Source: Sclerotinia nivalis (Eukaryota; Ascomycota; Leotiomycetes; Helotiales; Sclerotiniaceae). From it: 64,000 bases of DNA. Location: NCBI GenBank assembly GCA_029531795.1, contig JAPEIS010000010.1, forward strand, positions 1,736,001-1,800,000, in the 5' to 3' direction. The position numbers and the translations under genes were made by a program. Below, piece by piece: positions 56,155 through 60,832 of the stretch (position 1 is the stretch's first letter; each line of letters begins with the position of its first letter). A model generated the notes under the pieces. The model was not told where the DNA came from, ran no database searches, and worked only from the letters and a program-made list of their open reading frames with translations.

Positions 56155-56614
56155 TTTGCTTGAAAGTTTTGGAGGGGTACGGAGATATTGTGGTGGGGTT
56201 TTACTTTGTGGGTTTGCTTTGAAGAATAAATTTTGAATCACATAAACAAAATATTTCACGACCAATCTGAAGATTATAATTCACGACCGCGTTTTGGTAT
56301 CAACCTCGCGCATGTGGTTATCAATGCATATTAATAGGAAGGTTCAAAATCGCGTTTTAGGATGATTTGTAGTGTCGGTATCACAGTAAAATTCATATAG
56401 CTCTCTAGTATAGATAGAATACAAGATCCCCCTAGATATTTCAATTTTCACCCGATAATTTCTAGCCAAATCCAGATACCGCGCGAACAAACCTCTCCAT
56501 TCATGAAATCCACCAAAGCCATCCGAAACATGTCAACTTCAAACCAATTCCATAGCTCACAAACCAAAAACCAAGGACTCTTCTTCACAATCCAGGCAAG
56601 CCCAGAATTTGCAA
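56155..56614. other. Intergenic between translin and U2 genes
   Basis: Translin promoter and the region downstream of U2. No gene seen. Confidence 0.5.
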
Positions 56615-56889
56615 TGAAAAGAAGTTGTTCGCTTCACCTGGAGGCAGTGTAATACCAGGGAAACTGTGGGAATGATCATGCGCGAGCACAGCGGACCATC
56701 CCCGAAAGACAAAAATAAGTATAATCAATGTGACCGTCTGTGACGATCTTTCAGAGATTAAACTGAAAAGAACAGATACTACACTTGATCTAAGCCTGTA
56801 AGAGAAACCATTGTTAGCAAAGAATCAAAAGATGAAGAGAAAGGAGAGGAAGAATGTAGGGGGTATCTTACCAATAGGCAAAGAGAGCT
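56615..56889 (-). ncRNA. U2 spliceosomal snRNA with a spliceosomal intron
   Basis: On the minus strand, 56795 leftward reads GCTTAGATCAAGTGTAGTAT and on through CTGTTCTTTTCAGTTTAATC, i.e. U2 with the branch-site pairing GUAGUA at 56782-56777. An Sm-type site (AUUUUUG, 56708-56718) and a 3' stem-loop CUGGUAUUACACUGCCUCCA near 56632-56660 follow. The expected 5' end is not adjacent. Upstream comes an intron of 76 nt (56871-56796) with donor GTAAGA, branch TTGCTAACA and acceptor TTACAG. The missing piece AGCTCTCTTTGCCTATTG follows at 56889-56872. Joining them restores GCC-UAUU-GGC, stem-loop I. Mature length would be about 200 nt. The exact 5' and 3' ends are estimated. Confidence 0.9.
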
Positions 56890-56920: not shown

Positions 56921-56929
56921 CTTATATAG
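56921..56929 (-). promoter_or_regulatory. TATA box of the U2 snRNA gene
   Basis: CTATATAAG on the minus strand, about 32-40 nt upstream of the predicted U2 5' end. The surrounding 30 nt (CCAAATATC, TATATAAG, ATTCTCTTCCCTC) are exactly repeated at 59887-59916 (+), marking a conserved promoter segment. Confidence 0.7.
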
Positions 56930-57135
56930 ATATTTGGGAGTGGCCTGTGCGCGCTAGGAAAGAGGCCAGTTAGTGCAAACATGTTTGACCAAGTGACAAA
57001 CGTGGCAAACTGCTTTGACCGTACCTACTCCGTAGTTCTCGCGCTTACTCCGTAAAAAAGAAAAAAAAAGTTCTTTCAGTCAACTTAGGTAATCACCATC
57101 TCCACCCAAGGCTCCACTCTGTACTTTGTGCATCG

Positions 57136-59858: not shown

Positions 59859-59957
59859 TCCTTTTCCTAGCATGCATACGCTACTTCCAAATATCTATAT
59901 AAGATTCTCTTCCCTCTCAATATTCTATTCTTTTTTTTCTTTAGCTCTCTTTGCCTA
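59859..59957 (+). pseudogene. Truncated copy of the U2 promoter and first exon
   Basis: This stretch repeats the U2 upstream region in opposite orientation. CCTTTTCCTAGCATGCATAC corresponds to CTCTTTCCTAGCGCGCACAG. Then 30 identical nt around TATATAAGATTCTCTTCCCTC follow, and TAGCTCTCTTTGCCTA, identical to the U2 first exon. Homology stops three bases before the U2 intron donor. Most differences are C/T or G/A. No U2 body follows, so it cannot make U2. Confidence 0.75.
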
Positions 59958-60025: not shown

Positions 60026-60308
60026 CTTCTGTACCCGTATATTATGTCAAATCCATAATACACGATTATATTAGTCGTATATTACGAATTTTTATGAATT
60101 TTTATTATTATTAAAAAAAATTCGAATATAGGTTTCAGACCGGACCCTCTTCACTTTTGCTGTATATCATACATGATCTTCTGTATGATTTAAGAGTTCA
60201 GGTTTGTAACAATTTCTTCGATTTGAGCGGTCAAATTCGTCGTATTTATAGACAAGTAAAATCCGTATTTGATGATCTAATTTTAGTTATAATATACGGG
60301 TGAGAAAG
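60026..60308. mobile_element. MITE-like element with TA target duplication
   Basis: A 283-bp AT-rich element is bounded by TA on both sides (60024-60025 and 60309-60310) with inverted ends. The left end is CTTCTGTACCCGTATATTAT. The right end in reverse complement is CTTTCTCACCCGTATATTAT, 16 of 20 matching with an unbroken 13-bp core. TA duplications are typical of Tc1/mariner-derived elements. No transposase is encoded. Confidence 0.65.
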
Positions 60309-60832
60309 TACCTTAGAAAAGAATAATTAGTCCAGAGTTGCAGAGTCAAGTGATTATCAAATGTAAATAGTAAAGTCTTGTGATATATATACAGCGTTAC
60401 TATCACCGCAAAACTTAAGACAATATTAATTCGCTTCCCACTTCTAATCTTATTCCCAAATAAAATTCTCCAACAAGATCAATCAATGAGAATTTAAAGA
60501 AGATGAAAAACTCGCTTCAGTGATTTACCTCTATTTTGCTCTTTTCAGTATCGATATTATTTTCAAGTATTTCAAATAGTAGTAATTCACTTCCCACATT
60601 CACTTTCCACACTCCCTTCCCGCATTTCTTTCCTGTATATATACCCAACAAGGTCTTGAAACTAATACTCAACACCGAGGCCCTATATTCTCAGAATCGC
60701 CTATTTTCCGTAGATTGGTGGACCGTTTTCTGAGATGATAAGGCTCGGTCATGGAGGTGTCCGCAGTACAGTCAACAATGAGAAACTTTCGTTTTTCTAA
60801 TTTCGGAAAAAGATTCGAAGATTGAGGTTGTT
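60309..60832. other. Intergenic downstream of the NLR gene
   Basis: No gene seen. Pyrimidine-rich stretches and a short motif-free ORF (60536-60733, +). Confidence 0.5.

Follow-up and report, generated by a model that had tools for sequence, protein, structure and literature searches.

The window, the whole 64,000-nt stretch of DNA under analysis, carries on its minus strand a U2 snRNA gene, here called U2_C10, which seems to have all its parts, the promoter and the 3′ signal included, and which, judged from its sequence, is an interrupted gene, with a predicted spliceosomal intron separating a short first exon from the U2 body (Table 1). Exon 2 contains the rest of stem-loop I, the branch-recognition sequence GTAGTA, stems IIa and IIb, the Sm site, and stems III and IV. 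The Rfam U2 model (RF00004) matched the unspliced locus contiguously from 56811 to 56623 at 132.1 bits, against a gathering score of 46 bits, and filled the 5′ end of U2 with gapped alignment to intron sequence, a warning for annotation in that a covariance model returned a full-length U2 match while reading an intron as part of the RNA. The insert contains a GT donor, a CTAAC-type branch site with its branch A 18 nt upstream of the intron's final base, and an AG acceptor at normal spacing, in agreement with the signals described for fungal U3 introns (PMC5832005). The exon 1 sequence GCTCTCTTTGCCTATTG has a single exact copy on the minus strand of the window; with up to two mismatches, the exon 1 motif was found three times in the window against 1.08 expected, and the only exact match was at 56872-56885.

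A translin gene lies downstream of U2_C10 on the same strand. A zinc-finger protein is encoded nearby, its closest named relatives coming from Stromatinia, Botrytis deweyae, Ciborinia, and Sclerotinia at 66-69% identity; the match to the Sclerotinia relative covers 64% of the query, and identity to the Botrytis sinoallii protein is 52%. This one protein places the genome, tentatively, among the Leotiomycetes, within or close to Sclerotiniaceae.

Table 1 Features of the U2 locus and of related loci in the genome
Feature	Position	Strand	Basis
Upstream promoter element TTTGCACTAACTG	56967..56979	-	Sequence and alignment of eight upstream regions
TATA box, TATATAA	56922..56928	-	Distances in eight upstream regions
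U2 exon 1, 17 nt	56872..56888	-	Sequence, shuffle test, model comparison
Predicted spliceosomal intron, 76 nt, GTAAGA...TTACAG	56796..56871	-	Sequence signals
Branch site TGCTAAC, branch A at 56814	56812..56818	-	Sequence position in intron
U2 exon 2	56623 (about)..56795	-	RF00004 match and folds
3′ hairpin with 1x1 A.A mismatch, likely RNase III processing/termination signal	56578..56621	-	Folds, covariation
Inverted partial copy of U2 promoter, 62 nt, 87% identical	59863-59924	+	DNA search, alignment
Inverted copy of first 16 nt, TAGCTCTCTTTGCCTA, 16/16 identical	59942-59957	+	DNA search, alignment
Dispersed repeat	about 60052-60316		
Uninterrupted second U2-type gene	C7:1793187-1793382 (L002 1501-1696)		RF00004 match
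Likely U6 intron, 53 nt	L011 1468-1520		Splice signals
Second U4 match (U4_C16)	L016 1501-1649		
3′ hairpin sites of other genes	L002 1713-1765; L012 1650-1691; L013 1449-1493; L015 1660-1701; L017 1788-1829		

Promoter and 3′ hairpin

Alignment of eight upstream regions revealed an element like TTTGCACTAACTG also upstream of U1_C1, U1_C5, and a second U2 gene on contig C7 (C7 U2, described below). The TATA box is located 40 nt 5′ of exon 1 in U2_C10, and the corresponding distances were 40 and 41 nt in the U3 genes, 46 nt in U4_C11, 48 nt in an inverted promoter fragment in the window, 52 and 53 nt in the U1 genes, and 68 nt in C7 U2. A shared snRNA promoter is apparent, consisting of a TTTGCACCAACTG-like element followed by a TATA box 40-53 nt 5′ of most genes (window 56922-56979 on the minus strand, L012, L013, and L002).

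The inverted fragment (59863..59957, plus strand) joins part of the U2 promoter to the first 16 nt of the gene through a diverged spacer, with the likeness stopping 3 nt short of the donor. Because these 16 nt are identical although the spacer preceding them has diverged, the fragment supports exon 1 as a part of the gene, while saying nothing on whether its source carried the intron. We rejected a full U2 copy behind the fragment, as U2 matched once in the window and the sequence there is a dispersed repeat. This repeat starts ~95 nt behind the fragment and has ten further matches of 71-88% identity on seven other contigs.

Behind the 3′ end of U2_C10 lies TTTTCATTG, followed 33 nt on (start to start) by TGAAGAAGA. 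Both halves were present behind six of the nine non-U6 genes examined, with a spacing of 33 nt in U2_C10, U1_C1, U4_C11, and U3_C9, 36 nt in U1_C5, and 44 nt in C7 U2, where each half contains one change. U3_C12 has the first half only, without a hairpin fold of this kind, and neither half was found at U5_C8 or U4_C16 among these nine genes. Each of the six sequences folds into a single long hairpin containing a 1x1 mismatch, which is G.G in C7 U2 and A.A in the other five, with z-scores against shuffled sequences ranging from −0.9 (U3_C9, 56/300 shuffles as good) to −3.2 (U1_C1). The four hairpins of equal length share 17 pairs, which are 97.1% paired and of which nine are changed on both sides; of five covariation measures, four were reached by 0/500 shuffles and the fifth by 9/500, and slid alignments reached at most 66.2% pairing, bearing in mind that the tested structure was derived from folds of the same sequences, which favours it. 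The six snRNA and U3 genes are followed by one motif, TTTTC[A/G]TTG...TGA[A/G]GAAGA, in which the 1x1 purine mismatch is fixed and the distal stem covaries. The shared hairpin is likely a signal for RNase III processing and for termination.

Evidence for an intron at the U2 break

Removal of the insert restores a conserved U2 RNA by consensus alignment, fold, and model comparison alike. Joining the exons rebuilds stem-loop I at −8.5 kcal/mol compared with −2.9 kcal/mol for the unjoined sequence, and raises the alignment score of the 5′ end to the Rfam U2 consensus from 77 to 91. The joined fold is not extreme among its shuffles (z −1.33, 22/200 folding equally well; unjoined z 0.89), but the 5′ stem-loop I that characterizes U2 (RF00004) is obtained, in both the fold and the models, only after joining.

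We looked for the 5′ end itself in the 300 nt preceding exon 2, using a 15-nt consensus of the fungal U2 5′ end. This region contains a match with one mismatch, with a GT immediately after it and an AG at the junction. An equally good match anywhere in the region occurred in 1/20,000 dinucleotide shuffles (6/20,000 in a similar test), and one followed by GT in 0/20,000; under looser limits, with both GT and AG, matches with up to two mismatches were seen in 4/20,000 shuffles and with up to four mismatches in 93/20,000. By contrast, the splice-signal pattern alone is at chance level in the window, with three matches on the minus and two on the plus strand against a mean of 2.7 (20 shuffles, one strand), and we dropped it as evidence in its own right. 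The evidence for an intron is therefore the coincidence of these signals with the break point in U2.

These results also bear on where transcription begins. If it began in or just before the U2 body, the product would be a U2 without a canonical stem-loop I, and the upstream match would be a relic or a coincidence, a reading in favour of which stands the 132.1-bit Rfam match to the contiguous stretch. The distance from the TATA box to a start at exon 2 would be 133 nt, compared with 40-53 nt for the genes of U1, U3, and U4, and an upstream match with GT in the right place exceeds chance, making such a start very improbable.

To compare the two forms independently of the 15-nt consensus, we built models of the joined and unjoined 5′ domain, each from two identical rows, and ran them over six loci. 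Four of the loci came from public prokaryote genome contigs, in which four U2 stretches were found in three records, none of them fungal; scans of public viral contigs gave no U2. Since these U2 genes carry the CTAAGATC form and one of the loci (L004) also contains U1, 5S, and histone elements, the records are probably contaminating eukaryotic, probably animal, DNA, and we used them for reference only. The joined model scored 70.2 versus 47.7 bits at L004 (+22.5), 60.5 versus 34.7 bits at L007, which is cut at its 3′ side (+25.8), and 57.5 versus 42.8 bits at L005, whose 5′ cut falls inside stem-loop I. At L006, which belongs to the same record as L007 and where U2 begins after the modelled region, the two models were nearly equal (40.6 versus 38.5 bits), and the joined model gave a weak extra match of 21.6 bits. 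C7 U2 scored 32.8 bits with the joined and 24.3 bits with the unjoined model, and the window's own locus scored 82.9 and 116.3 bits, the unjoined form being higher here by construction. As the models differ in predicted structure too, the comparison supports the joined form without proving it.

An earlier note on this DNA had proposed an intron inside the U2 gene, with the missing 5′ end lying upstream across 76 nt, and this agrees with the splice signals, the fold, the models, and the shuffle test. The hairpin that it expected from joining does form, and the comparison of spliced and unspliced sequence by covariance-type models that it suggested favours the spliced form. It had placed the junction in the loop of stem-loop I, which needs correcting, since the junction falls in the 3′ strand, between its first and second base (GCC-UAUU-G/GC). 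It had also begun the gene at 56889; the locus is the same, and the sequence moves the start to 56888.

As to the kind of intron, U2 was the sole Rfam family to reach its gathering score in the window, with no match to a group I or II intron family, and GTAAGA and TGCTAAC are signals of the major type, while the U12-type donor and branch motifs are absent from the insert. At 76 nt the insert is also shorter than known introns of groups I and II. We found nothing in favour of such an intron, of a minor (U12-type) one, or of an insertion that stays in the RNA, and regard these alternatives as extremely unlikely. A point against the proposed intron is that the U2 donor can pair with U1 at only six of ten positions, compared with eight for the U6 donor and seven for the U3 donor. 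Complementarity in U2/U6 helix II was also considered and set aside as not discriminating, exon 1 offering a run of 8 pairs and the last 16 nt of the intron 11.

Other snRNA and U3 genes in the genome

A search of the assembly (50.3 Mb, 31 contigs; 46 of 1973 U2 candidates scored) identified an uninterrupted second U2-type gene on contig C7 at 76.6 bits (gathering score 46). A DNA search with the joined U2 gene matched only U2_C10 and the inverted fragment and missed C7 U2; since even this gene was missed and a part of the candidates was scored, further U2 copies are possible. C7 U2 shares CCCAAATATCTATATAA, the TATA promoter, and the upstream element with U2_C10, keeps GTAGTATCTGTTCT, and is followed by the 3′ hairpin. 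The gene is strongly diverged; its stems IIa/IIb and III/IV fold well (z −2.70 and −3.54) though their sequence is largely different from that in U2_C10, and in stem IIa, compared by eye, two pairs are changed on both sides, three are unchanged, and one is lost. A canonical stem-loop I was not recognisable in C7 U2, where the Rfam match starts 68 nt from the TATA box; a longer 5′ end, as the TATA distance implies, could adopt another fold, although a weak one (z −0.73). The canonical stem-loop I of this gene appears to have been lost or rebuilt.

C7 U2 is probably a diverged, active U2 variant, although it could also be a young pseudogene, and a dedicated role for a variant with a rebuilt 5′ end is conceivable. 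Its existence raises the question of which gene supplies the cell. That U2_C10 is silent or decaying and C7 U2 provides the U2 would fit the uninterrupted form of the latter, its score well above gathering, its promoter and 3′ hairpin, and its well-folding stems. U2_C10 is far more canonical (132.1 versus 76.6 bits), still combines its promoter and exon 1 with splice signals and a 3′ hairpin, and has the stem-loop I that C7 U2 does not recognisably show, so that we consider a silent U2_C10 very improbable.

The single U6 match in the genome (contig C1; 47 of 4675 candidates scored) also looks interrupted, on the basis of splice signals and of known U6 5′ ends. Here ...AACTAACGATTTCATAG precedes the U6 body, and ATCTTCGCCTTCGGGCATT, followed by GTAAGTAT, lies 53 nt upstream of it, giving a likely spliceosomal intron of that length. 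The predicted intron sits between the 5′ hairpin and TGGTCAATTTGAAACG. The joined 5′ end forms a small GCC-UUCG-GGC hairpin that is not better than its shuffles (119/200 as good). The clearest case is U3, where U3_C12 (L018) contains a 114-nt intron exactly where U3_C9 (L017) reads on.

For the two U1 genes, both slightly below the gathering score, the two U4 genes, and the one U5 gene, the matches span the whole models unbroken, though such a match may be aligned over a break, as it was in U2_C10. The second U4 match, U4_C16, scored 51.6 bits and shows no TATA promoter by eye and no 3′ hairpin, and is perhaps a pseudogene.

U2 maturation and comparison with known systems

Computation shows the layout of the gene, its refolded stem-loop I, its promoter and 3′ hairpin, and additional introns of this type elsewhere in the genome. 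We consider it highly probable that U2_C10 is the canonical U2 snRNA gene of this fungus and that an ordinary intron of the major spliceosome splits the 3′ strand of its stem-loop I. In the maturation path that we propose, RNA polymerase II would start ~40 nt past the TATA box, existing spliceosomes would excise the 76-nt intron via TGCTAAC and TACAG, and an RNase III would cut the 3′ hairpin, releasing a mature U2 of ~190 nt that regains stem-loop I; the order of these steps is likewise conjectural.

The branch point of a major-type intron is recognised by U2. An intron in the main U2 gene would therefore make the splicing machine dependent on its own activity for its supply. The earlier note had described a closed loop that could autoregulate U2 supply, and its premise stands, as a need for U2 in the splicing of its own precursor follows from U2 function. 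The loop itself is probably open, since the U2_C10 precursor could also be spliced with C7 U2, provided that this is made, or with inherited U2 particles. The note had also held that an intronless U2 gene elsewhere, with this locus silent, would refute its reading; such a gene does exist on C7, and nothing shows that U2_C10 is silent. One can imagine a starter pair, in which C7 U2, maturing without splicing, helps to splice the U2_C10 precursor, splicing capacity sets the supply of main U2 and U6, and C7 U2 is able to restart the system, but we regard this as unlikely. Since the only U6 gene found looks interrupted too, two catalytic-core RNAs would need splicing in this genome, and the uninterrupted second U2 makes it testable whether C7 U2 supports the splicing of U2_C10 and whether unspliced U2 builds up when splicing is limiting.

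The shared 3′ hairpin has a parallel in Schizosaccharomyces pombe, where U1, U2, U4, and U5 are described as having stable hairpins directly downstream, at which the RNase III Pac1 triggers termination (PMC8421224). U2_C10 resembles these genes in having a stable hairpin directly behind the mature snRNA, but differs in that six genes here (two U2, two U1, U4, and U3) share one sequence and structure motif, and cleavage is predicted.

Rhodotorula hasegawae is a basidiomycete and not an ascomycete, U6 is made by RNA polymerase III whereas U2 is made by RNA polymerase II, and U3, unlike U2, has no part in splicing. For R. hasegawae, Takahashi et al. (1993, Mol Cell Biol 13:5613; as cited in PMC2586383) reported that the U2 snRNA gene contains an mRNA-type intron, which, as far as that citation describes it, is as in U2_C10 a spliceosomal-type intron in a fungal U2 gene. 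The introns reported in fungal U6 genes (Tani and Ohshima 1989; Canzler et al.) are likewise mRNA-type introns in a spliceosomal RNA gene, to be removed by the machine that the RNA serves; this genome has a U6 candidate of that sort, and the difference from U2_C10 is that another RNA is concerned. In the survey of fungal U3 snoRNA genes (PMC5832005), 138/310 genes are given as interrupted, with 133/138 introns in the 5′ half of the 5′-most stem-loop, GT-AG and RCTRAC signals, and a mean length of 92 nt, and eight genomes, including those of Botrytis cinerea and Sclerotinia sclerotiorum, as having both interrupted and uninterrupted copies. According to the same source, U3 and U6 alone among small structured RNAs are known for frequent interruption.

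The earlier note knew of no such intron in this group, and we recognised no description of an ascomycete U2 intron among the papers listed from the open-licence literature, where many older papers are missing; the case is less exceptional than the note had supposed, given the apparent U6 and U3 introns of this genome and the fungal U2, U6, and U3 introns in print. The predicted U2 intron is of a kind already known from R. hasegawae, here in a relative of Botrytis and Sclerotinia, and the more interesting point is the occurrence of U2, U6, and U3 introns in one genome together with an uninterrupted U2 variant.
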